Shown: one piece after another, positions 22,914 through 58,147 of the stretch
Layout of the letters: each line of letters begins with the position of its first letter
How positions within the stretch are numbered: position 1 is the first letter of the stretch
Assembly: GCA_963971425.1 (NCBI GenBank)
Contig: OZ020524.1
Location: forward strand, 19,211,022 to 19,275,021
From: Bryoerythrophyllum caledonicum
Taxonomy: Eukaryota > Streptophyta > Bryopsida > Pottiales > Pottiaceae
DNA length: 64,000 bases
Reading direction: 5' to 3'
The notes under the pieces: model-generated
What the model was told of the DNA's origin: nothing
What the model saw: only the letters and a program-made list of their open reading frames with translations
Database searches by the model: none
Made by a program: the position numbers and the translations under genes

Positions 22914-23972
22914 TCACGGAACAAATTTGGCTTTCTTCGCAAGTGAGATGATGAGAGGCTGCGTTCTTTTGGGATCGGCAAGAGAGGTAGAAGGCGGAGC
23001 TAGCTTCCGCTTCTCACCAGGATTTGAAGTTATGGATTCGCTCCGCTTGTGCTCCGAAGACAGACCAGATTGAGCTGACGAACATGAGGTGGTGTTGGAG
23101 ATGGCTTGAGATGATGTGAGTGTGCCGTTAGTTTTGAGGTGTAAGGCGACGCTGGCGTTGAGGGAGCGGTTGGGCAGCACGTCAGAGGGCTTGCACTTGG
23201 ACGAGGCGCAGCTGGGACACTTGTGGTAGAGGGAAAGGGCAGCAAGGACACAAGAACGACAAAAGCTGGTGAAACAACACGGAATCAGAACGGCGTCTTT
23301 CATAATGTCATGGCATACGGAACATGCAAGGTCACGTGGAATCTCTCTAACTACACTACTCTCTAACGTGACATCTGCGTGCGACGACGGTCGCTGTGCA
23401 CTCAATTGATTCCTCTCGCTGCTCGCCGCATGTTGATTCCTGTGGCGGCTCACGCACGACGCCGCAGGTTGGTTCCTGTGGCTGCTCACACTTGACGTCG
23501 CAGGTTGGTTCTCACGGCAGCTCACGCGCGACGCCGCAGGTTGGTTCCTGTGGCTGCTCACACTTGACGTCGCAGGTTGATTCTCACGGCGGCTCACGCG
23601 CGACGCCGCAGGTGTGGAGAAGACGTCGTCTCCAAAGCCGTCGTCGATCGGACATGCCCTAGGGTTAGGGTTTGTGATTGGTTGGGGAGCTTGCTGCTGT
23701 TTCTCGGCTTCCGAGACGACGTACGCGGGCAGCCGCTTCACCACGACCCTCGAGTGCCGTGGAACCTTAGTTCCCGCGCCGAGAATCTCCTCCTTGCTCT
23801 CCGCGTCGAAAACCCTGAAATCAAACCTCTCCTTGACGCTCCGTTTCTCCATGGCCGCCCGGAACTTGAGGTTGAAGATCTCGTCCTTCAGCCGCCCAAG
23901 CGCGATCCAGTCGCCTTCCACAGGCACCGACTCAAACTGCTTGGACGCAGCAAACATGAAGTGCACCGCCAT
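22914..23972 (-). CDS. DWNN-RING (RBBP6/PQT3-like) E3 ubiquitin ligase, intronless
   Basis: 352 residues in one exon. Residues 1-82 form a DWNN ubiquitin-like domain beginning MAVHFMFAASKQFESV and ending RVVVKRLPA. Residues 217-255 form a C4-type RING/U-box-like finger (LACSVCHDIMKDAVLIPCC, then FCRSC and CPSC), typical of the RBBP6 family. In Arabidopsis the relative PQT3 is an E3 ligase in oxidative-stress control. The family normally has a CCHC zinc knuckle between these domains. Here residues 121-189 are instead five 12-residue repeats alternating PAASRVSRRENQ and PATSSVSSHRNQ types, plus a partial sixth. The tail is basic (KRKLAPP, KKAKF). Start: an ATG with the DWNN signature. The frame extends 13 codons upstream but without an ATG. 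A substrate-recognition role is inferred. Confidence 0.9.
   Translation of the reverse strand: MAVHFMFAASKQFESVPVEGDWIALGRLKDEIFNLKFRAAMEKRSVKERFDFRVFDAESKEEILGAGTKVPRHSRVVVKRLPAYVVSEAEKQQQAPQPITNPNPRACPIDDGFGDDVFSTPAASRVSRRENQPATSSVSSHRNQPAASRVSCRENQPATSSVSSHRNQPAASCVSRHRNQHAASSERNQLSAQRPSSHADVTLESSVVREIPRDLACSVCHDIMKDAVLIPCCFTSFCRSCVLAALSLYHKCPSCASSKCKPSDVLPNRSLNASVALHLKTNGTLTSSQAISNTTSCSSAQSGLSSEHKRSESITSNPGEKRKLAPPSTSLADPKRTQPLIISLAKKAKFVP
23406..23612 (-). repeat. In-frame 36-base minisatellite within the DWNN-RING gene
   Basis: Five units of 36 bases and a partial one encode alternating 12-residue repeats. Units two and four encode identical peptides, pointing to a 72-base higher-order duplication. 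Reading frame is preserved across the array. Confidence 0.9.
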
Positions 23973-23999
23973 GGCGTAGGTGCCAAACTCAACCAAAAC

Positions 24000-24135
24000 A
24001 AACCAAAACAAACCTAAACTACTGCTGCAAACTCAAACTACTACTGCAAACTCAACCAAAACAAACCTAAACTACTGCTGCAAACTCAAACTACTACTGC
24101 AAACTCAACCAAAACAAACCTAAACAAACCAAAAC
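24000..24135. repeat. Tandem repeat upstream of the DWNN-RING gene
   Basis: About two and a half copies of a roughly 54-base unit built of AACCAAAACAAACC, TAAACTACTGCTGCAAACTC and AAACTACTACTGCAAACTC segments. It lies immediately 5' of the DWNN-RING start, in its leader or promoter. Confidence 0.8.
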
Positions 24136-30780: not shown

Positions 30781-31576
30781 ATGAATGGATTGAATTTAAG
30801 TGACCATAAAAGCACACAACCTCCAAAGTTGTTTGGCATATTGCACTATTTTAACCCTTAAGCCTTTAAGGCCGATGAGCTTTTTAAGCCTATGAGGATC
30901 TATGAGCATTCTAGATCATGGAGAATGGCATCTATGCAATGAGTACATTTCAGTATGAAAATCTATAAACTTGTTTTACGGAAATCACTATCGGTTGCCG
31001 ATACTTATACTGATTGCGGTGGCGATGGTCTCAATAAATGCCCATCTTCCTCCACCTCTAAATCATGGTCTATTCTTTCCTTTGAAGTGGCTTATTGCGC
31101 TTTCTATAAAGGTTCTTGTCCCAAAACGCCCTATATGTGGTTATATTAAAAGTTTGTAATTGTGTTGAGCCTAGTTCAATGACACATGACAATTTTAATT
31201 TAGATCATTACTGCACCTACTACATGCTTGAGAAGTTGCAAAGTGGTCATGTATCCTACATGTATGGTGTCGTATTTGAACATGACAAGGTTTAGAAGAA
31301 GAAGAATAATAATGTCGGCATCGAGAGGGGCCGGCGTGAATAAAGTGTCTGTTCGTTCCACTTACTAAGACCATGTCCACTGGACAAGGAAAAGTAAGCT
31401 GGAACTACTCCCCTCTCTCGAGGGTAGACACTATGTGACAAGTAGCCAAAGAACCACAGACCAACCAACCAACCGACCAACCAATCTCAACAAAGCAACT
31501 AACCAACTACCGATCAAGCAAGCAATCACAAACCTTAAGACCAACAAGTCAAGATAAATAAAGGTGGGGAAAGAAT

Positions 31577-32308
31577 TTAAGGGGGGTCTTGTGTGTCGGG
31601 GAGGGTTTGGTTGTTTTCGATTTTGCGTTTATGCAGAAGAATGGACATGGCATGTTGAATAGCAATGGTGTTAATGTTTTTAAAGGTGGTTTTAATTGTT
31701 TCAATGGGGATTTTGAAGACATTTTCAAGATTATTCATAGAGGGGATAAAGGAGGTAGCACGAGCGCCGGAAGTTATTACAATAAGGGGGTCCACATTCC
31801 ACCCGAGAGCCATGATGTCGTCAATAAGGGGTTGGTATTTATCGATTTTATTTTGGATTGTTTCCGGGGAAAATCTATCGTTGCAATATGTGAATTCAAT
31901 GAATTGAATGGTGTAATCTTGGTTGATGTTATCGGGTGGTGGGTCGTTATATGGTAAACCTTTAACACAAAGAATGTCCGGTTTGAGCCGAGCGTTGCAA
32001 TGACATCTTTGGGTCATACATGAGCATGGGAGTAGCCAAGGGGGGACCGTATTTTCTTGTGGTTTGTTATTGAAAGTGCCTGCGTTCATTAGTATAAAAC
32101 ATCTCGATTTATTGTAGAAGGTGATTAGTTTTCGGCTTTCCCATACCGCTTTATTATGTCTTTTAACGATAAGAGAATGTATGTGATGGTTTTGGCATTT
32201 GAGTAGAACATGAAGCCATGTGTCGGGATCCGTTGAGGGGCATATGGGGCATGTTATGGATGGGAATCTTTCTATTCCGAAGAAGAGTTGTTTGCGAGCG
32301 TTTCCCAT
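31577..32308 (-). pseudogene. LINE C-terminal CCHC finger and restriction-like endonuclease
   Basis: 243 codons. A zinc-finger motif C-x2-C-x9-H-x4-C (Cys20, Cys23, His33, Cys38; ITCPICPS and WLHVLLKC) is followed by HSLIVKRHNKAVW. That finger and RxxRH-type spacing precede the restriction-like endonuclease in R2-class LINEs. The nuclease core shows KPDIL (Asp111), QFIEFTY (Glu138), IDKYQPLI (Lys157) and a PLIVITSGARA strand, the order of a PD-(D/E)XK fold. I infer a second endonuclease beside the N-terminal APE. Open and undamaged in this stretch. Confidence 0.78.
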
Positions 32309-32438
32309 ATACTGACCAGTACGGAATTTGATGAGGCATGTTATTTGCGAGTCTGAGATGTTGGGGTTTTTCCAAAAGTTTGTAGAGAGTTCATTGTCTG
32401 TCGTTATTGTTAGTCCATTTTTCTATGTTAGGAATATT

Positions 32439-33528
32439 TTATGAGATTGTATCAAGGTTGTTGTAGAGGTCTTGTTTTTTGAGATATTTGCCCAAAAATC
32501 TAATTGGGCCTTTGTCAGGGGTATCTTCTTTGTAAGGCCATTCTTCTTTTTGAAAGTAGTATGGGGTAGCATGGGCATGCTCGTGTGGGTCTTTGGCATT
32601 TTTGTGTGATTTTTCTCGGCCTTCTTTTGCTAATTTGTCTGCTTCTTCGTTGCCCTCAATGTTGGCATGGGCTCTTACTTTATGGAGGGTTGTGATTTGT
32701 GTACGGTTTTGTAACATTTGGACCATTGATGTTAATATAATTTGATCGGGGTGGCTATTATGAAGGGTGCGGTGTGTTATTTGAGTGTTTAGTAGGTAAA
32801 GTGCATTTATACAATCGGTGAATATATGTGCGGGTTCATTATTGTATTTTGTTGTGATGATTTGTAGTGTTTTGTGAATGGCCATGAGTTCAGCTCTGAG
32901 GAAATTTTGTAGTCCATGGAGTCTTTTGGCTAGTTTAATTTCCTTGGTAGTTATATATGCCATAGTCAGCTTTTTCTCTGCGCCAGGAGCCCGGGCTAAT
33001 TTGTTCGGGTGGTTTAAAGGAGCCATCAGTGTAATAGCTGTGTGCGGGATTAAATTTTGGTGTGGTATAAGTGGGGTAGTCTGGAAGAGGGGGAGGTGTA
33101 ACGGAGTGGTTTATTGTGTTGTTGACATAATTTAGTTTTGACCAGTTTTTACTTTTGTTTACAGGGGTTTGTGTCGGTGTTGGTGGGGCCAGTTTTGTGT
33201 ATGGTCGTTGTATGTCTAGATTGTCTGTTATGGAGTTGAGTTCCGCAATTTGTTCGAGGGAGCCAAGGGTTTGATTTTGATGATGGACGCATAGTATTTG
33301 TAATGTAGATGGCTCGATTCGGGGTTTTCTTAGCTCGGGTGGAATAGTAGGTTCTTTGTATGGTATTGTGTCTGCTTCAAATAATGTAATAATATGGGAA
33401 TCTTGAAATGGGTTTGAGTGTGGGTTGTTGTTTTGGTACCAATTGTTGTTCGGTGTGATGATGATTGTATTTGTGTTATTTGGATCATGTTTGGCGGCAA
33501 GTCGAGCCCAATGTATTGCTTGTTCCAT
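32439..33528 (-). pseudogene. LINE RNase H domain, split over two frames
   Basis: The first frame ends with SYYTDGSFKPPEQI (about 33036); the second holds LRAELMAIHKTLQ, HIFTDCINALYLLN and HANIEGNEEADKLAKEG (about 32666-32620). These supply the four acidic residues (D, E, D, D) of type-I RNase H. The frames overlap at 32935-33026, showing one frame shift within the domain. It removes element RNA from the hybrid during second-strand synthesis. Confidence 0.85.
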
Positions 33529-33946
33529 ATCTTTCTCGTTGTGGGGGTGAGCTATACCATTGCCGATCCATTTATAGTCAAAGACCTTTCCTAGGGATCT
33601 GAATATTTTGTCTCTTTCATAAGGTGAGTAGAATTTTTTTAGTTTAGTAGAACATGTGACCGGGGAAGAAAAATATGATTGTTCAATGTTAAAGGATGAG
33701 ATTAATGAGTCTAAAATGGAAGTGGGTATTGTGTATTGTGCATTTTTTAGGAGGTCAGTTTTCGGTATCCGGTATTTATACCTTTGGTATAACCAGATTA
33801 GTTCGGTTTCAAAGGGTTGGGTCGTTGGTTCAATGTTTGTGGGGGTTTGTAATTTTGTATTGTATTGATTCTATAACCATTGGAGTCGAGTAATGGGGAT
33901 AGTGTGTAAGTGTCGGCCATTTTCTTCATATAGATGTGCTTGATCG

Positions 33947-34591
33947 TTATCTATTATAATTGTGTTTGAGGGTGTAAGAATATCTTTTTCGGGGTTGCAT
34001 TCTGTTGTGTGGAATAATTATGAGTGGTGTTACAGATCTTGAGTCCGAAAGTTGTTCTTGTGGGTGGTGGGCTTGGATGATTTCTGAGTATGTTTTGTTT
34101 TGGGTTTTTTGGTAGTATTGTTTTAATTTTTGGGTGTTGAGTGTGGAGGTATTGGTGTCGTGTCTTGGAAATAGATCTCTTTGGTGGAGCCATTTATTGT
34201 ATGTGTTATCATTGTATTGCCATTGGCATAAATATTTTGTGTAGGTGTTTTGTATGTTATTTGTGTCTATGTGTTGGATATGTTTATGGCGTATGATGTT
34301 ATTAATGGGATATGTGGTAGGGTTTTTGGGGATGTATGTTGGGGGGTGGGGATGGTATGTATGTGGGGGATTAGGGGGATTGATTGGTGTGAGAATATTT
34401 CTTGGGATGATGCTATTGTTGGGGGTGATGAATGGATCCTTAAGTATTTGCAAGTATGGGTGTATGTTACAATTAGTATGACATGTGGTGGGGCATGTTG
34501 GGTGGCAAAATATTTGTTTAGCAACATTTAGGGCACTTTTTATTAGTTTAGTTGGAGTGAAGTGGTAGGTTTTAAAGTCTTCATAGTTCAT
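33947..34591 (-). pseudogene. LINE polyprotein linker between RT and RNase H
   Basis: An open frame of 214 codons rich in Pro, Thr, Asn and His, with CHPTCPTTCHTNC-type cysteine spacing near its start. I recognise no domain. It lies where LINE polyproteins carry a thumb or linker region, and its frame differs from both neighbours. Confidence 0.5.
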
Positions 34592-34828
34592 GATGTGTGT
34601 GCCGTTAGGTAGAGTAATTTGGGTTAGTTCGAAAATATTTTTTGAGAGGAGTTTTTGTAGAAGCTTTTGGGAGAGTTGGGCATTAAGTGTGTTGTGGTTA
34701 AGTGTTTCTTGCCGCCATAGTGTTTCAAGTGTTGTAGGGTTAATGAGAAAGTTTGGGAGTGTGCTTTTAAGGTGGACTTTAGCTATATGTTTTAATAAGA
34801 AGAATGTTCGTGTTATTGGTGACCTTAT

Positions 34829-36514
34829 TCAGTCGGCTTTTTTAATTCTAGGTATGTTTTCAGCGCCACCATATTGGGCAAGTATGTAATGAGTTAACCC
34901 ATCATAAATTTTTCCAAGTCTACTTTTATCGGTTAAGGCATTTTGTAGTTGTTCGCCTATACATCGGAGATATGCATTTTTTAGGGAGAAAGCTTCAAGT
35001 CCAAATAGGTTATGTGGGAGTTGTGTTATTGCATTTGACATACATTTTGGTACTCCACATATGGTTTTTTGTATGGCGATTATTTTTTGATCAAGTTTTT
35101 TGATGGCTGGCATAGAGTATGGTACACCATAAAAACTATATGCCACACCTGGGCGTAGTACGGTATCAACCATTTTTATTTTTTGTTTCATGGTGGCCGG
35201 ACATGTTGTTAGTTCTTTGCATTGTTTGATGAGCTTTGTGGTTGTAGTGTGGATTTGGATTTTCCATTTTAGTGAGGGAACAAGATTTGTACCTAGGTAT
35301 ATGTATGGTTCGTTTTGGTGTAGTATAGGGATTGGTTGGTTGCGGTAGTTGATGTTAGAGGTTTGCATTAGGGCTTTGAAAGTGGTAGGGTTCAATTTAG
35401 ATTTGTTTGGGCATCCGGTAGCGGCACATTTTGGGACTCCCACATCCATGCCAGCCCATTTACAATATCTATCAATTTTATTGAGTTGTATTTGGATTGA
35501 TTTGATTTTGTTAGTTATAGTGGCTAGGTCATCCGCGTATGCGGCGGAGTTTATTGTGACTTGTGATGTGCCGAAAGTATATCCGTTATTGCCTCTTTCT
35601 AGCCATCTAAGTAGTGGTTCTAAAAATATAATAAATAGGTATGGGCTGAGGGTGTCCCCTTGTATAGTTCCTCTTTGGATGGGTATAGGTTTTGTTTTCC
35701 CAAAGTGTTCACCGACATAGCAAGTAGATGATTGGGAATAGATGTTTCCAAGAAGTGTAGTTGCCTCTTTTGGGTAGCCAAGGTCTGACATTATTGCTAG
35801 AAGTCTGACATGGTCAATTGAGCCAAAGGCATTTTTATAGTCAACGTATAGTATGTATATATATTGGTTAGTAAATTTTGCGTCTTCTAATGCGGCTATT
35901 ATAGTTTGTATTTGTCGTGCAATACTTCTCTTTGCTCTAAATCCTTCTTGACTATCATGTAGGATTTTGAATTTTTCGCCATATGAGGATAGTATGTGGG
36001 TGAGTGTACTAGTAAAAAGTTTATATATTGTGTTAGCTAGTGCAATTGGTCTATGATTGGGTAGCATGGATGGATCGCCTTTTTTGTATAGTAGAATTGT
36101 TGTACTTGTTTTCCATGAATTTGGTATTTGTTTTTGTTTACAGCAGTGAGAAAAGAATAGGAATAGTAGTTTATGAAATCTTGGAGGCATGTTTTTGAGT
36201 ATTGAGTTTGGTATGCGGTCTGGGCCTGGGGCTTTATTATTTCCAAGATTTTGGAGGCATGTGTCGTATGTGGCTCTGTTGAGGTATTTATGTATTGGGA
36301 TTTGTGGTTTGCCCCGTTTGTCAAGGGTATATCCGTCCAGGTCATGCCATGGGTATTGGCGTACTGCGCATGTACATTCTATTGTATATTGTAGCTGGTA
36401 ATTACATGTTGGTACTGTTGGTCTATTGGTTTTTGTTTGTTGGTTAAATATTTCATTCGCAATGTCTTCGGGGCTAGTTAGAATATCATTATATTGATTT
36501 GTGATACAGTCCAT
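34829..36514 (-). pseudogene. LINE reverse transcriptase domain (561-codon open segment)
   Basis: Longest open frame in the window. Ordered RT motifs: NKAPGPDRIPNSILK (residues 93-107), HRPIALANTIYKLF, GFRAKRSIARQI, YVDYKNAFGSIDH (catalytic Asp225), QRGTIQGDTLSPYLF, then AAYADDL with the catalytic Asp pair at 328-329 (about 35535), GVPKCAATG and YIYLGTNL. The catalytic residues are intact although the frame is closed off from its neighbours. It copies the element RNA at the nicked target. Confidence 0.93.
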
Positions 36515-36533
36515 TGGCGGGGATTCAAGGTTT

Positions 36534-38287
36534 TTAAAGATTTTTTGTTATTTTTTTTGGGCTGATTTCGTATAGTTGTCTATATTTTGAGATGGATTTT
36601 TTAACGTTTTCTTTGGTGTATTTTGTGATTATTTTCCGGGCTTGTATGTTGGCATTTTTAGCAATTATCGCGATATCTTTTATCCATGTATCGTGGGAAA
36701 GGTCCGGAGGTGGCGGGGTAGGGATTTGGATGTGTTGTAGAGTTAGTAGTTCATTGTATATGGGGTGGTTACGCCATTGAGGGTTGTTTTTTACAATTCT
36801 AATGGTTTTGCGTATGGTATGGTATGTGGTTAAGTGTTGTTTCCAAGTTTTAAAAAGTTTGCGGGGTAGGTATCCGCCTTGTTGAGAAGTTCTATTATTC
36901 ATTTGGGGTATTGGGTGTGCTCTACAAGTTTGTTCTAGTATTTTAGAGATTTTATTGATGAGTTTGTCTAGGGTGTGACATGCTTCTTGCCATTGAGCTT
37001 GTGTTAATTGACTATTATTTTCAAGAGTGTCTATGAGGGAGTCTATTTGTATGGAGTTTTCTTCGAAGAATTTTGTGTTGAATTTTTCTATGTTGGTTTT
37101 TGGGATGGGGTTGAGTATGCGTATAGTGTCTTTGTTTAGGATTATAGGAGTTCTACTAATTAGTGTGTTATTTGGGATGTGTAATTTTACGGGTGAGTGG
37201 TCCGAGTTGAGAATAATATCTTTGTTTGTTGTGGAGGTGTATTGTGTATTGTTCTTTGTATTTATATAGAATCCATCGATTAGACTCCAATCACTATAAT
37301 TATAGCCACCTTGTCTAGAGAATTGTGTATCAGTATTGATGTAAGTGAAGTTTAAGTTTTCTGTGAAGCGACGCCATTGATAATCAATGTTTTGAGGGGG
37401 GGTGTGATGATTTCCATTTTGTCGGCCAATTAACGCTATGTCTCTGTTGAAGTCTCCGCATAATAGGTATGTATGGTTGGGATTATTATTAATTTGGGAT
37501 GTAATAGTGTTTTGTATATCTAAGAGAAATCTAGTATCTTCGGGATGGGATGGCATATACATGTGAAAGATTAACCACGGTTGTAGTGGGTGATTAGTGA
37601 TTTTAATTATTTGGATGTATGGTGATATATGCATTGGGGTAGGGGTTTTGTTGATGTTGCCTGGGAATGTATATTTTTTGTGTATTAATGTAAGGAGGCC
37701 ACCTCGGCCCGAAGTGTATGGTCTCGGTTGTTGCATGCATCTTGTAAGTGTATGTGTATTGTTAAAGATGAGTTTATAGTTTTGAAATATATTTTGTATG
37801 TATTTGTAGATTTTGTGGCGGTTAGTTTTGTTTCTTGTATAACTATGAGGGCCGGTGGTGTGTCTGTGTTTGTGACTAGAGTTTGTAAGCTAGGAAAGGT
37901 GGTGTTTAGTGAGGAGGTATTCCATGTTATTATGTATGTATTTTCTTGGTTTGATCTAATGTTTTGATTTTGAGGGGGGATGTAGGGAAGAGGTGAGGGT
38001 GGGTGGGTGTATTCTGGTATAGGATCTAGACATTTTAGTGATTCATTTATGAGGTTGTTAGGGAGGTAAGGGAATTTTAGTTTTATTGTATCATTTGAGG
38101 GTGGTATATCTTGACTATGTAAGAAGTCGTATAGTCTTTTATGTATTGAGTTCTCATGGTTTATAATATTATGGTTGTCAACCAAGAATTCAGTATAAGG
38201 GTGTAGAGTGTAAATGTGTCGTTCTGGTGGGTTATATAAATTTAGTAAGGTTTGTAGAAGTGTGTTGGTCCACGTAGTTGTGTTCAA
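36534..38287 (-). pseudogene. LINE AP-endonuclease (exo-endo-phosphatase) domain, frameshifted
   Basis: Two overlapping frames (38287-37685 and 37736-36534) carry the domain in order: TYIITWNTSSLN near 37940, LIVIQETKL, then after a one-base shift near 37800 SGRGGLLTLIHKKY, LLCGDFNRDIALIGRQ near 37457, SLIDGFYI and LNSDHSPVKLHI near 37205. The metal-binding and catalytic signatures (WN, QE, GDFN, SDH) are all present. It would nick the target DNA to prime reverse transcription. A second shift near 36530 separates it from the RT frame. Confidence 0.88.
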
Positions 38288-38911
38288 ATTTTGTGGGTTT
38301 AGAAGATGGTTACATTCATCTATTTTTGGATGAGTAGTGATTATTAGAGCGTATAGAATGTAGGGTGGTGGATGCGTATTTTTTTGTTGTATGTATTGGG
38401 CAATGTTTGGGTGGGAAGTGTTGTGTATGTGGTGTAGTGTATGTGTGTTTTTTAAGAAAGGTGCGAAGGATTTTGCAATGTGTTCATATTCTGGTTGGAG
38501 TTTTATGGTATTAGGTATGATGTATATTTTGGCATTTTTTTATGTGTTCTGGGGTGTCTTTTTAGTATATTTGGCATGGGTCCGGGGTTGGTTTCTATGT
38601 CTCCTCCCAGGAGTAGTAAGAGTTTGTTGTATGTATGTTTAGTGTTATATTTTGACGTTATTATTATTATTATTGTTTTATATATATATATTTTTAATAA
38701 TAGTTTTTTTAGGCTTTGTTATGTTATTAAGGTCTTGTTTATTTGGGGGGAGACAAGGTTTAGATATTGAAATGACCTTCAAATGAAAGAGGTTAGTTGA
38801 AGAATCATCAATCCAAAGGTGCATGTCTTGCTAGATTTTAGTACATCTTTTGTATGCAAAGAGTAAAATTGGTGACTGTATATATGGTCCCCATCGACCT
38901 TTAAAGGTTAA

Positions 38912-40376
38912 AGTGAGGGGGATTTTACATGCGGACAGTTGATCAAACTATGTCGAGGACCAAACCATGTTGAGGACCAAACTATGTCGAGAGGCCGAGT
39001 TTTGGAGTTGGAATAAATATTAGTATATGTAATTTGTGGAGTTTGGGTCCTTGTAGTGTGAAAGCTCGAGAGACCGAGTTGAGAGGCCGAGACCTATACC
39101 ATTTGGCAAATTCCAAGTCAATTTCTACTTCTTAAGGATCCTACTTTTATGAATTTTTCCTCTCTCACATTCTCTAGCCATGGAGTCTACAAGGGAACAT
39201 AGTTTTGGTTAAAAAAATCAAGATAATAGTCAAAATGCTCATTACACAAAAATTTATAGCACAAGCACTGGCACAGAAAAAAATTAAAGTAAGAACATTA
39301 AGGTGAAAAATCAAATACAAATTTTCAGGTAAAAAGATGGGTAAAAAGTTGGATAAAGAATTTGAATAAAATGTTTCATGGTAATATAAGATATTGTTTT
39401 ATCCCATAAACTAGTAAATATTTCAGGGTAATATAAGTTACGGTTGAGATCTTGCCAGATATTAATATTTTAATGAAAAAAATGTTCAGCACCTCGGCAA
39501 GAGTTGGTCCAAACAAGAATAGAAACCTAAACTTCTCTCAAGGGACCAAACTCTTGGCGCCAAAACCTCCAAAAAGTGTTGTCATGTAGGCATATTAGAC
39601 GCCCTAGGCCTCTCGACTGTTGCTCCGTGTGTGAAAGCCAAGGGGCCGATTAAGGCTGAATTTGAGGCTCAAGACCAATCAAATTGCAAATAGCACTCGG
39701 CCTCTTCACCCTCGATCGGCATTTGAAACCCCATAAGGATCATCTGTTTCCAAGAAAAAAACCAACACGCAAGTGTGTCGTACTCAAGATTCCACTAAGG
39801 TAGCGGACCACATTCTTGCCCGAGTCCTAATGGCAACTCCTAGGGTTGGGGGCTGGTCCACAGAAGTGGACAATTGGATTTGTAAAAGCGTCCATGAAGG
39901 GGCTTTTACTATTTACTGGACAGGTTTAGGGGTAGATCTGCTCGAAGTAGAGCTTCAGGCTCGATGAAAAATGCAGGTCGTTGTTTGGAAAGAGGGAGTA
40001 ATGAAGTTGCAATTACTTCTTTGTAAGTTCGAAAAATAGCCTACATAGTGGGCTGATTTTGTAATAAAGGAGTTATGTTTAGTGCTTCTAAATGGGCGGC
40101 TTCACGTGGCGGCATGGTTTTAATTGCAACCCATAGAGGACGCGTTTATATGTAAAGGTGCTTGTATTTCTGAGGAACCATGGTGGTTTTAGTACTGCAG
40201 TAAGAGTGAGGTTAGAGTGCTCTCTGGAGGTTGATTAGAGTAGTCATGAGTACATTTGTAGAGAAAACTGAGGGCTTTTAGAGCAGTGAAGAGATACCAG
40301 AAACTCAAGTGTGTGGTGTAGGAGGGCAGATTTCAATTGAGGATGGGCAAGGGGGGGCTTAGACTTTGATGATCAC
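38912..40376. other. Spacer left of the transposase gene
   Basis: Contains repeated GAGGACCAAAC / CGAGAGGCCGAG phrases near 38950-39090 and related AGGGACCAAACTC / GGCCTCTCGACTG phrases near 39540-39620, which may be arms of another decayed element. No gene is recognised. Confidence 0.4.
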
Positions 40377-42314
40377 ATGACTCAATTAGAGCAAGGGAGG
40401 AGGAGATATAGAATTTGTACTCCTACTCTGCATGTCAATTCTATTGCAAATGCAACTCAACAAGCCAAACGACAAACTTTGATTGTGGAAAGTGAGAGAC
40501 CAAGGAGGATAGGGTTGAGGAGTTCAGCTCCATGGGGGCAAAGAAACCTATCTCAATCTGATTTCAGTGTGAGAGAGGTAGGGACCCCCATAGGTGGCTC
40601 CCAAAATGCTCAATTAGCTCCAATCAATACTGTAGGGGTCACCAGAAACACAAACAGTAGAGGTGCAGGCAAGAAAACGGGGAACTAGATAGATGCAGCA
40701 TTAAATCAAGCAATAGATGCAGTCACAGATCATGGCATGAAGGTAAGAGCTGTTGCACGCACCTTTGGCATTCCACCTACCTCTTTGAGAGACCATTTGT
40801 ATGGCAAAGTAGTTGGGAGGAAGAGAGGGACAAAAACAGTGTTAAGTCAAGAGGAGGAGGAAACATTACTTGATTACTGTTTTAAGATGCAAGATCTAGG
40901 CCACCCATTAACCTCAGGTCAACTGAGATTAAAAGTGGCCATGGCAACTCAAACAAGGAAAATCCCTTGGAGTGCCAATGGAGTCCCTGGAAAGTCCTCG
41001 CTTAGAAGCTTTAAACTAAGACATCCAGATCTAGTATCTAGGAAAAGCCAGCCCCTAGAGATAGGCAGAGCTAGGGGATTATGCCCCACAAGTGTAGCTA
41101 TCCTATATTCTAACCTACAGGAGCTTTACAATACCTTTAACTATCCACCCTCCCACATCTGGAATTGTGATGAGAGTGGAGTGTAGGCTTCAAGATTTGA
41201 AAGAGCAACGGTCCTAGAAAAATTGGGTAGCAAGTCTATCCACACCATAGAGCTAGACCAACGTGAGCACTTGTCAGTCCTCTCTTGCATCAATGCTGCA
41301 GGAGGAAAAATACCTAACTTCAATATCTTAAAAGGGACTTACTTCCTACAAGATTACATCAAAAACTGTGAGCCAAATGCTATCATGGCCATGCAACCTA
41401 ATGCATGGATGGCTAAGTGGCTCTTTGAGTCCTGGATCTCACATTTCATTGGCATTTTAAAGGAAACAACAAGAATTGATGACAGAAACAAGCGCTTATT
41501 TATTTTAGACGGGCACAATTTGCATGTGACCTTGGAAGTGGTTACAGTTGCCATCAATTCAAGTTTAGATATCATCTCCCTACCAAGCCATACTTCCCAT
41601 GCCCTATAACCCTTAGATGTCTCTTGTTTTAAACCTTTCAAAAGTGCATTCAGACAAATAAGAGACTCCTGGACTTTATTGAACAAAGGCAAGAAGGTAG
41701 AAAAAACAAACCTATGTGAATGGACAGCTGAAGCCTTAGAAAAAATCCCTAACTCCTAAGAACATCAAGTCAGGCTTCCAAAAAACAGAGATATGGCTAT
41801 TAAATGATCAAGCAGTCATTGCAAGAATGAATCTCAGTCAAGGTTTTGAGGAGGGGCAAGAAGCCTTCGACCTGGACAATGCACTTCACTCCACTAAGTC
41901 GGAGTCCAGTGACGAAGGTGACGAAGGAGGGCCATCGGAGTGGGAGGGTAGACCCTGGAGTCCCATAGAGGAAGGCAGACCCGGAGCGGGGCTACATATT
42001 GGGGAAGGCAGGGCCGGAGCGGCGATGCAGCTGGCCGGGGAAGACCGCGCCGGAGCTCCCGTGCAGCAGGTTGGCGACAACGGGGCCGGATCTGCGATGC
42101 AGCGGGTCTGTGACTTCGGCGGTGTAGCTGCAACGCAGCATGTCACCGACGTCGGGGCCAGATTAAAGAGGCAGCAGGTCGCATATTTCAGCGGTGGAGC
42201 TTCAGCGCAGCACGTCAGCGTCGTCAGGGTTGGTTCAGCGATGCAGTAGGTTGACGACTTCAGCGGAGGAGGATCGGCGAAGTAGCGGGTCGGTGATTTC
42301 GGCGCTAGAGCAAC
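40377..42314 (+). pseudogene. pogo/Fot1-type DDE transposase, N-terminal and catalytic part
   Basis: From an ATG at 40377 the frame gives a helix-turn-helix (psq/CENP-B type) in DAVTDHGMKVRAVARTFGIP and TSLRDHLYGK (40710-40810), a second DNA-binding segment (LRSFKLRHPDLVSRKSQPL), then DDE_1 motifs: IWNCDESGV (41158-41183), FILDGHNLHV (about 41500) and SHTSHAL followed by PLDVSCFKPFK (41590-41640). Stops interrupt it at 40686 (TAG), 41184 (TAG) and 41607 (TAA), and a one-base frameshift at about 41755 precedes NIKSGFQKTEIW. Downstream the frame stays open through an acidic stretch into a 12-residue repeat tail. The family cuts and pastes TA-flanked DNA. Dead copy. Its 3' part continues at 44217. 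Confidence 0.85.
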
Positions 42315-55364: not shown

Positions 55365-56911
55365 ACTGTCCTGAGGAGTGAAGGGGAATTATCGGATAGC
55401 CAGCCACTCAGGCAGTGGGCTTTGTCGCCACAGCAGCCGCGCGCGCTGCGACGACGACGCAGCCTGCGTCGCGTGCTATTCTCTCATAATACATCGTCGC
55501 TCCTTGCACGCCACCACAACCAACCACTTACCAAACAGACAAACACACCGCATCATCGACACCGCTGCTGCTGCTGCTGCTACTGCTACAGCGCTAGTCA
55601 CAGTAAGCTACTCAGCATCACCTCAGGCTGCAGTTGCAGCAAACTACTGTAGATGGTCACTGCTGCACCGTGTCTGTGCTAGCGTGTCGGATTTGCACCG
55701 TGTGTAGGAGACTAGTACTAGCACACTTCAACGCGGTCGACCTGCTCCCCTCGTTGCAGTGGTGGGCCGCCCCCTGGGTTACTCGTCTAGCTAGAAGGTC
55801 GCCGCACTGCTGCTTTTTCTGGCCTTCCTACTTGTCGCTCCGGAGTTGCGGCTGCATGTTTTCCTCACAAACTGTTTTATGCATTTGAAGCCGGGGTGAT
55901 CAGGCTGTAGGATATCTGGAGCCTTGAACCTAGTCGGGTTTGTTAGAGTATACTACCTTGTTGTGTGTGTGCGACGCGGAGAGTTTTGTGAGGGGTTGAC
56001 GAGTTTCTTTGCTTTACAAGTGGGCTTCCCTGGTCTTGAAGAAAGTGGATTCTGGCGAATTAGCTGTGAGCTAGAGGTTACGGAGAAGACCAGAACGAGT
56101 TTGGGGTTGATAACTCGCCTTGAAGAGCCTGCAGTTTCAGATGATCACCGTTGTTTCCACCTTAGATTTGGGGTTGCACGGGAGCAGAATGTGGAGATTT
56201 GCGGCCGGCGCACTCAATCTTATTGTCGTGCAGCGGTGAAGAAGGAAGAACAGAAGGGACTTCCATAGCTGGTATCTGTGGTTCTTTGGAATCGGCTAGC
56301 GCTTGTTGCTTGTGGTCGGGATGCTACACTCTGGAGCAAGCTTGCGTGGACGCCCATCATTCCGAGGCTCATTTGTGTTGGACTTGCGCTTTGGAGGGCT
56401 ACCTAGGTTGCAGGTATGGCGATCACTTCAAAGTGAAATTACACTACAGGTTCATGTTTAGAGAACTCTTTGTAAGCTACTGCTAAATTTAGGAATAAGA
56501 AACTGCCAATCAATCGTGAAGAACTCCGTAATGGCGACCAATTTATTCCTCCTCTGGCAGGTTTATGAGGTCTCAAAGCTTGAAATCCACTGCATTATCT
56601 TATTATCATTGCCGTATGTATGACGTAAGTGGTGCAATCAATAACCTGGTTGAGAAACATCACTCCTATCAATGCCGCGATCGAGAATTTGCAGGTATTT
56701 TGTGCAGAATAAGTACTCTTGATAAGAAAGACGCACATTAGTGGGCCTCAGTTATGAACATGGGGTCCAGGTTGTTTAGGGTTCGCGGTGCACCTTCAAC
56801 CGAAACTTGTGTGTGAAATTCAATAAGGGTATGGTACAGATTAGAAACTCGGAAGCTGTGTCTGTGAGAAAATCGATAATGCTGACGTGAATCTCTCCGT
56901 GCGCAGGAAAT
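55364..56911 (+). promoter_or_regulatory. Upstream and probable 5' leader region of the pseudokinase gene
   Basis: GC-rich from 55400, with a CTG run at 55565-55580. The pseudokinase ATG lies only six bases after a GCGCAG acceptor (56900-56905), so a leader intron ends there and non-coding first exon(s) must lie upstream in this stretch. Open frames here are not conserved proteins I know. Confidence 0.45.
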
Positions 56912-58147
56912 ATGTGTTTGGTGAAACGGACGAAGAAGCAACCGCCACCAGGCTCCGAAGTATTCACTCCCAAGGCCAAGCCCAAGGCAAGCAAGGCGGC
57001 CGGACCGGACGAGATCAGCAGCCTGGACATCACGAATTCCAAGAGCACCACCAACTCTTCCAAGGAGTCGCGCGTCTCGTCCGCCAGTGCAACCTCGCTG
57101 ACCAACATCCGGGAGATGCTCTCGGACGGGCCCATCATCTTTCAGTACAAGGATCTCTGCAAGGCCACGGACAATTTCTCGCCGTCGAAGAAGCTGGGCG
57201 CCTCCGTCTACCGAGGGAAGCTCCAGAAAACCACCGACATCGCAATCGTCGTCGACAAGAGGAGCCCCAGCTCGTCGGGCAGCAGCTTCGTGTCCGAGAT
57301 CAAAAACCTCGGAAGCGTGCACCATGCGAATCTGGTGCGATTACTGGGAGGGTGCAGAAACGGCGACCACGTTTACTTGGTGTACGATTACGTCAACGGG
57401 GGAAACCTGCGGCAGTACCTCCACAGCGCGCACTCGCCGGGGTTCTCCGCGCTCCCGACGTGGACGGTGCGCATCCAGGCCGCGCTGGACGTCGCCAAGG
57501 GCCTGGAGTATCTGCACCACCACACGCTCACGCCCACCGTCCACAAGTACATCAAGAGCTCCAACATCCTCCTGGACGAGGAGCTTCACGTCAAGATAGC
57601 GTACTTCGGCGTGGCACGCATCCGCGGCGAGACAGGCCACGCGGCGAAGGAGAAGGAGCATCCAGAGATCACGCCCACCCTGAGACGCTCCCACAGCGTG
57701 AAGATCACGGGCATCCACGGGTACATGGCGCCGGAGTACGTCTCCGGCGGCGTGATCAGCACGAAACTCGACGTGTTTGCGTTCGGGATCGTCTTGCTGG
57801 AGCTCCTGTCAGGGAAGGACCCGGTGAGCTTCCAGACGGGCGGAGCGATGCATGAGATGAAGAAGACGCTGCTGAACGAGGTCATTGTGTCCATCTGCAG
57901 CGAGCGCGACCCCAAGAGCAGGCTCAGGTCGTGGATCGACCCAGTTCTCAGAGACAGGTTCCCGCTCGACTGCGCCATGAAGGCGGCGGCTCTGGCCCGC
58001 AGCTGCGTCGACCCCGTGCCGGAGAATCGCCCCGACATGAGCAAGGTCGCCATGACGCTCCTGCAGATCCAGATGGCGTCGCAGATCTGGGACGACAAGA
58101 TGAAGGCCTCCAAGGATCTCCTCACCAGCACCATGCAGGCGCGGTAA
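56912..58147 (+). CDS. Receptor-like cytoplasmic pseudokinase (LysM-RLK-related, At3g57120-like)
   Basis: 411 residues in one coding exon with high GC at third positions. After a Ser/Lys-rich N-terminus starting MCLVKRTKK (Cys2 could be acylated), a kinase-like domain runs from FQYKDLCKATDNFS (77-90) to about 395. Key residues are altered: the Gly loop is LGASVYRG, the VAIK lysine position reads IAIVV (about 113), the catalytic loop reads VHKYIKSSN with Tyr213 in place of Asp, and the DFG site reads YFG (Tyr231). The fold residues APE (273-275), LDVFAFG (Asp287) and ENRP (Arg373) remain. So it should not phosphorylate; a scaffold or regulatory role at the membrane is inferred. The open frame is clean, so the losses are evolved rather than decay. 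The family assignment rests on recalled similarity. Confidence 0.9.
   Translation: MCLVKRTKKQPPPGSEVFTPKAKPKASKAAGPDEISSLDITNSKSTTNSSKESRVSSASATSLTNIREMLSDGPIIFQYKDLCKATDNFSPSKKLGASVYRGKLQKTTDIAIVVDKRSPSSSGSSFVSEIKNLGSVHHANLVRLLGGCRNGDHVYLVYDYVNGGNLRQYLHSAHSPGFSALPTWTVRIQAALDVAKGLEYLHHHTLTPTVHKYIKSSNILLDEELHVKIAYFGVARIRGETGHAAKEKEHPEITPTLRRSHSVKITGIHGYMAPEYVSGGVISTKLDVFAFGIVLLELLSGKDPVSFQTGGAMHEMKKTLLNEVIVSICSERDPKSRLRSWIDPVLRDRFPLDCAMKAAALARSCVDPVPENRPDMSKVAMTLLQIQMASQIWDDKMKASKDLLTSTMQAR

Follow-up and report, generated by a model that had tools for sequence, protein, structure and literature searches.

The 64,000-nucleotide stretch of the Bryoerythrophyllum caledonicum genome analysed here (contig OZ020524.1, positions 19,211,022 to 19,275,021; hereafter the window, with positions counted from its first letter) carries on its minus strand a long interspersed nuclear element (LINE) that is very probably a dead, 5'-truncated copy of an autonomous, recently active land-plant LINE of the Dualen/RandI type. 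Such LINEs are known from Chlamydomonas, reportedly from the work of Kojima and Fujiwara in 2005. Judged by its domains, the family in the window is an enlarged variant of that type, with one giant second open reading frame (ORF2) predicted to encode, in order, a 2A motif, an apurinic/apyrimidinic endonuclease (APE), a reverse transcriptase (RT), a PCIF1-like domain, RNase H, a CCHC zinc knuckle and a restriction-like nuclease (REL). The initial annotation of the window had proposed a LINE with two different endonucleases and a Dualen-like ancestry. The first proposal, with its reading of the domains, was confirmed and the second was supported; the annotation had overlooked how large the element really is, as well as its 2A motif and its PCIF1_WW domain.

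The whole LINE runs from a 5' end near 38751 to a 3' end at 31297. The 13-mer GACAAGGTTTAGA occurred exactly twice in the window when both strands were checked, at 38752-38764 beside the 5' end of the element and, as an exact match, at 31284-31296 beside its 3' end, and these two copies of a target-site duplication set the bounds of the element at 31297-38751, coordinates identical to those first annotated from one 13-base duplication pair. Every motif was placed on the minus strand, in agreement with the single direction that had been claimed for the domains. The open-frame state and the 5' end of the annotated element needed correction. The coding region is not a single open frame, being broken into seven main stretches over three frames, so the copy is dead; it is also 5'-truncated, with blastn homology to longer copies beginning at 38653 in ten of ten copies. 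The 98 nucleotides (nt) between the homology start and the duplication (38654-38751, minus strand) are either filler or a diverged 5' part. Three tandem 17-nt units (GATCAAACTATGTCGAG) lie just outside the element at 38941-38991.

At the front of the element, an APE split by a frame break (37188-37945, minus strand, as are all features of the element below) displayed the motifs ITWN, IQET, GDFN, LIDG and SDHSP, including the GDFN and SDHSP noticed initially. In the window copy Exo_endo_phos_2 (PF14529) was matched at 1e-4 with 22.5 bits, short of the 27.4 bits of its cut-off; an intact copy passed the cut-off of Exo_endo_phos (PF03372; 26.7 versus 24.5 bits), placing an APE N-terminal to the RT as in Dualen/RandI elements. 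In the PDB the APE query matched exonuclease III (E 1e-3) over query residues 2-40 only. The RT and its thumb form an open stretch of 572 amino acids (34829-36547) that matched RVT_1 at 4.8e-27 and R2 in the PDB at 5.6e-32, with the expected YADD at 35522-35545. RNase H (32619-33036), likewise split by a frame break, matched PF00075 at 1.4e-11 in the window and was also matched in an intact copy; all four acidic residues that had been claimed were found, in YTDGS, RAEL, TDC and EEADK, and the domain is a further feature of Dualen/RandI.

The second nuclease was recognised by its residues. A CCHC zinc knuckle of the form CX2CX9HX4C (32195-32251) is followed at 31577-32167 by RH, KPD (31970-31987), the E of QFIEFTY (31886-31906) and a KX2KY, here KIDKY (31832-31852), with a stop codon at the end, and all residues of the CCHC, KPD, E and K series first described were located in order. 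Their meaning is taken from excerpts of PMC5678591, which describe LINE RELs with a CCHC knuckle, an RH starting the first helix, PD and E, and a catalytic K moved into the KX2KY of the next helix. KPD and E were invariant in nine of nine aligned copies and the first K of KX2KY was kept in eight of nine (the alignment leaves out L038, whose REL start was unmatched by the search string, and L034, whose frame ends early). When the C-terminal segment was shuffled 200,000 times, the CCHC and PD..E..KX2KY in order arose 0 times, PD..E..KX2KY alone 55 times and the CCHC alone 405 times, the pattern having been written after the sequence had been seen. From this residue set, together with the selection described below, we read the C-terminal segment as a restriction-like PD-(D/E)XK nuclease.

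Relatives of the window copy were found in the same 437-Mb genome, with at least 76 RT places, the number scored from among 6127 candidates. In the RT frame search the window's own place gave 100% and the other 75 scored places 94-96% protein identity, and the RT stretch was stop-free in 65 of the 76. Ten long copies and eight further loci were picked for long open frames. The ten long copies were mutually 95.9-99.2% identical over long matches (7.7 kb and more), and the window copy was 91.0-91.5% identical to all ten over approximately 7.35-7.40 kb (about 9% diverged), which makes it an older or decayed member of the family. Two copies were followed to both ends (C4:25644413 and C2:21397497; L041 and L042) and were 99.2% identical over 15.75 kb, with an ORF1 of 1419 codons and an overlapping ORF2 of 3708 and 3598 codons; as complete copies are about 15.7 kb, the window copy is less than half of full length. 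Their target-site duplications were 14 bp and 12 bp, giving 12-14 bp in the three copies read at both ends, the window copy included. Between the 5' duplication and the element start, each of these two copies had a stretch not shared by the other (37 and 51 nt; the window stretch measures 98 nt), and such stretches are possibly template jumps or filler. ORF1 (1419 codons; L027 1-2994, L041 4738-6099) had no Pfam match above cut-off. Across the 5' half of ORF2 (L021 2672-6838, and in other copies too) the open frame is rich in Thr, Asn and Asp and contains several nearly identical repeats, each about 41 codons long; that this half is wholly coding was considered doubtful, given its low complexity and a ratio of nonsynonymous to synonymous substitution (dN/dS) of 0.62 over a poor alignment.

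In the ten long-frame copies one frame of 3438-3757 codons holds the 2A motif, APE, RT, PCIF1-like domain and RNase H onward, and it reaches the usual REL end in nine of the ten (C2:21397497 stops approximately 105-114 codons early, inside the REL). A single uninterrupted frame spans both nucleases, contrary to the possibility raised initially that they come from separate elements. The eight further loci carry PCIF1-like, RNase H and REL domains, and in seven of them an APE match stood at the expected upstream distance (four unbroken, three broken). Within the ten young copies dN/dS was 0.10 for the CCHC-REL and for the RT, 0.22 for RNase H, 0.30 for the APE and 0.47 for the PCIF1-like domain. 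Between diverged copies (28 pairs of 8 sequences, 26 of the pairs with dS > 0.2; L087 excluded for its broken frame) it was 0.07 for the CCHC-REL, 0.09 for RNase H and 0.16 for the PCIF1-like domain. For the APE, values of 0.06-0.14 were obtained from ten pairs of five unbroken loci, and the mean over all 21 pairs of seven sequences was 0.12, with pairs including the frame-broken L094 and L097 reaching up to 0.71; L095 (no match) and L098 (broken pieces only), neither of which gave a frame of more than 200 amino acids, were left out. Low dN/dS in both nucleases argues that neither is a relic, and purifying selection on the two provides the strongest argument that both would be working enzymes.

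Several observations weigh against this interpretation. The GXW of LINE RELs, as given in the excerpted PMC5678591, was not found in the C-terminal segment, whose knuckle exceeds the published CX2-3CX7-8HX4C by one residue. This segment gave no nuclease match in Pfam, NCBIfam or the PDB, REL profile searches included, which taken literally is an outcome that had initially been named as refuting, although the LINE-REL residue set stands against it; structure prediction of the REL without an alignment gave an unusable model (mean predicted local distance difference test score, pLDDT, 33.4). It is the residue set, the constraint and the single frame that indicate a C-terminal REL in the same element, as in Dualen/RandI, rather than a profile or fold match. 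In the PDB the RT was matched best by the R2 chains 9nl2, 9nl3 and 9dou (E 6e-32 to 1e-28), with L1 ORF2 next (5e-21), and silkworm R2 scored lower than L1 (8gh6 at 2e-14, also 4e-13); the RT evidence is mixed on the branch between REL and APE LINEs that would be expected of Dualen. Within the young family the PCIF1-like domain is only mildly constrained and the APE is less constrained than the REL (0.30 versus 0.10). Among the eight further loci L095 had no APE match, and the APE of L094, L097 and L098 was broken. All dN/dS values are lowered because copies were picked for open frames. What each nuclease does, the activity of StopGo and the function of the PCIF1-like domain are predictions.

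A rival reading is an ordinary APE LINE of the L1/RTE kind, ending in a DNA- or RNA-binding tail that only resembles a nuclease. The missing profile and PDB matches and GXW would fit such a tail, as would the placing of L1 ORF2 above silkworm R2, and APE LINEs too end with a CCHC knuckle according to the excerpts of PMC5678591. However, RH, KPD, E and KX2KY are complete and in order, the knuckle with the catalytic pattern was absent from all 200,000 shuffles, no other domain compared between diverged copies had a dN/dS as low as that of the CCHC-REL, and L1 is clearly outscored by three other R2 chains. We consider the ordinary APE LINE improbable, and prefer the dual-nuclease, Dualen/RandI-type element.

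Between the RT and RNase H in ORF2 lies a PCIF1_WW-like domain, with an m6Am methyltransferase fold (33196-33870), which matched PF12237 with 45.1 bits (cut-off 31.1). This profile was matched in all ten aligned members and was above cut-off in 150 of 150 scored places in the genome (of 2614 candidates), with no match in any of 14 control genomes. A ten-member profile run against all PDB sequences with E up to 10 retrieved four chains only, PCIF1 6irx (E 0.37) and 6irv (E 1.0) and two designed TPR proteins (0.54 and 0.96), E-values that are weak on their own; a single-sequence PDB search with the window segment did not recover PCIF1, and structure prediction of the segment without an alignment gave a mean pLDDT of 33.4. 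Of the features of the PCIF1/CAPAM cap methyltransferase, the element shares the PF12237 match above the curated cut-off and the FxSPxxC and FGSxG blocks; it differs in sitting inside a retrotransposon polyprotein and in the catalytic NPPF, which in the alignment to 6irv stands opposite HPHN (within 33535-33558 of the window). HPHN was found in the window, in ten of ten young copies and in seven of the eight further loci, with HPHT in L087, which shares only 53% with the window, and HPH[N/T] replaces NPPF in 19/19 sequences. In a separate observation, 42 places (e.g. L083) had one and the same PF12237 score, 33 of them with frames of equal length (3087 codons), which is probably a second, very recent burst of the family.

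Since NPPF was lost, its replacement fixed and the domain conserved, the PCIF1-like domain is probably a pseudo-methyltransferase, which may have a binding role. Its presence in every aligned member and scored place, its dN/dS of 0.16 between diverged copies and the invariance of HPH in all 19 sequences would also be expected of an N6-adenine methyltransferase that is active despite its changed motif and marks the RNA or cDNA of the element. In the 6irv alignment other residues stand in place of the Asn, the second Pro and the Phe of NPPF, and we regard such activity as unlikely; we know of no N6 methyltransferase motif of the HPH[N/T] form. A fuller scenario, which we put forward tentatively and as less probable than not, is that a PCIF1 fold was acquired by a LINE lineage, had its catalytic motif exchanged for an invariant HPH and was retained by selection to bind the 5' cap or the RNA end within the dual-nuclease enzyme, allowing end-to-end copying of 15.7 kb with one nuclease for each DNA strand. 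No PCIF1 domain was found described for any LINE in the literature surveyed by title and abstract opening. If confirmed, it would be a LINE accessory domain without counterpart in that literature, and a hint of RNA cap handling. That two nested elements or an assembly join brought the nucleases together in the window, for which its broken frame might speak, is as good as impossible and was ruled out by the long-frame copies, in which the same order was found in one frame (REL end reached in 9/10), with an APE at the expected distance in 7/8 further loci (none in L095).

Upstream of the APE, DIETNPGP (38578-38601) conforms to the StopGo/2A core, (D/G/C/N)(V/I)ExNPGP in the excerpted PMC12846837, and the same motif was found at the same place in ten of ten long-frame copies. 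A degenerate NPRP copy stood approximately 510 nt upstream of it in eight of ten copies and GGELEINPGP farther up in four of ten, the upstream scan having reached further in two of the ten. Excerpts of PMC4981915 state that 2A-like sequences occur in elements without long terminal repeats (non-LTR elements) and require a suitable upstream context; the Trypanosoma L1Tc and sea-urchin elements treated there have the same D(V/I)ExNPGP motif and are titled APE-type, whereas here APE and REL occur together, with degenerate copies of the motif upstream.

The 3' tail of the window copy (31297-31313) consists of (ATT)3 and then CTT units, and is preceded by a terminal stem-loop (31314-31338) that is weak in this copy (-5.3 kcal/mol). 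At 49 of 50 junctions the terminal hairpin, either intact or with slight changes, came after a 3' anchor; L050, without the anchor, was excluded from tail and flank counts. The hairpin had the exact common form in 18/39 (-22.0 kcal/mol), and those of L053, L075 and L079 showed, by eye, two pairing-preserving double changes beside one C-A mismatch; L049 keeps one of the double changes. The tail was (TTC)n, with n of 2-21, in 47/49 copies and a T tract in two. The ATT/CTT triplets annotated initially hold for the window copy, young copies having mostly (TTC)n, and neither form is A(n). Flanks matched the element itself in 14/49 copies, 13 of them antisense (p 0.002). As the downstream flanks of the 49 copies were diverse, no fixed insertion site was seen. 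The 3' flanks were T-rich on the insertion strand (34 versus 10 copies, p 4e-4; 22 versus 9 without self-insertions, p 0.03), which fits, and no more than suggests, that an A/G-rich end of the bottom strand primes on the (UUC)n tail.

Excerpts of PMC4640811, PMC3636483 and PMC8226300 describe the Dualen/RandI elements of Chlamydomonas with the same APE and REL, RNase H and non-LTR RT, and their ATT-type 3' tail resembles that of the window copy; in further excerpts RandI is placed under green algae, with tails (ATT)n and (CTATTT)n (PMC3747384), and Dualen in all Chlamydomonas relatives studied (PMC8226300). Compared with algal Dualen, by description only, the present element differs in its land-plant host, its size of about 15.7 kb, its giant ORF2, the (TTC)n of young copies and perhaps the 2A motif and the PCIF1-like domain. 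With R2 LINEs it shares the best RT matches in the PDB (three chains), the C-terminal CCHC and RH, KPD, E and KX2KY; unlike R2, with site-specific insertion in ribosomal DNA and no APE, it has diverse insertion sites, an APE, RNase H and two ORFs, and L1 outscores the silkworm R2 chain. Plant L1 LINEs have the same APE at the front and two ORFs, and RNase H in the excerpted PMC4640811; in contrast to the L1 features of no REL and an A(n) tail, a REL is present here and the 3' tail is not A(n). Dualen was read as a link between restriction-nuclease LINEs and APE LINEs in excerpts of PMC4640811. No report of Dualen in a land plant, or of the present element, was found in the literature surveyed by title and abstract opening. 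With a young, highly copied family of this dual-nuclease kind in a plant, it becomes possible to test which strand each nuclease cuts.

In the mechanism that we propose, a capped transcript would give the ORF1 protein and an ORF2 polyprotein, from which StopGo at DIETNPGP would free the APE-RT to REL enzyme as its own protein. This enzyme would bind the 3' hairpin of the element RNA and one nuclease would nick the bottom strand, whereupon an A/G-rich primer end would pair with the (UUC)n tail and the RT would copy the RNA by target-primed reverse transcription. The cut in the second strand, 12-14 nt away, would fall to the other nuclease, and removal of the template to RNase H. The PCIF1-like domain, no longer methylating, would probably bind the capped 5' end of the element RNA and so favour complete, cis-acting copies.

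Among minor features, a weak stretch KYLCQW...NKW between the RT and the PCIF1-like domain (34190-34237) resembles a chromodomain, with a Chromo match in an intact copy at E 0.085 and 13.2 bits (cut-off 25.1) that is suggestive only. No Rfam match was found in the window, and no relative came from pattern scans of IMG/VR (with the window REL and RT) or of GTDB contigs (with the REL alignment), scans which need short exact peptide matches. The streptophyte host proposed initially was supported by a single kinase gene at 56891-58147, whose best PDB matches were LysM receptor kinases (8e-56); the occurrence of LysM kinases makes a land plant very likely. A fragment at 40689-41186 matched a Tc5-type transposase DNA-binding domain at E 3e-4, slightly below the cut-off, and on the minus strand at 22914-24032 a gene that we take to be RBBP6-like combines a DWNN domain with a RING-type finger.

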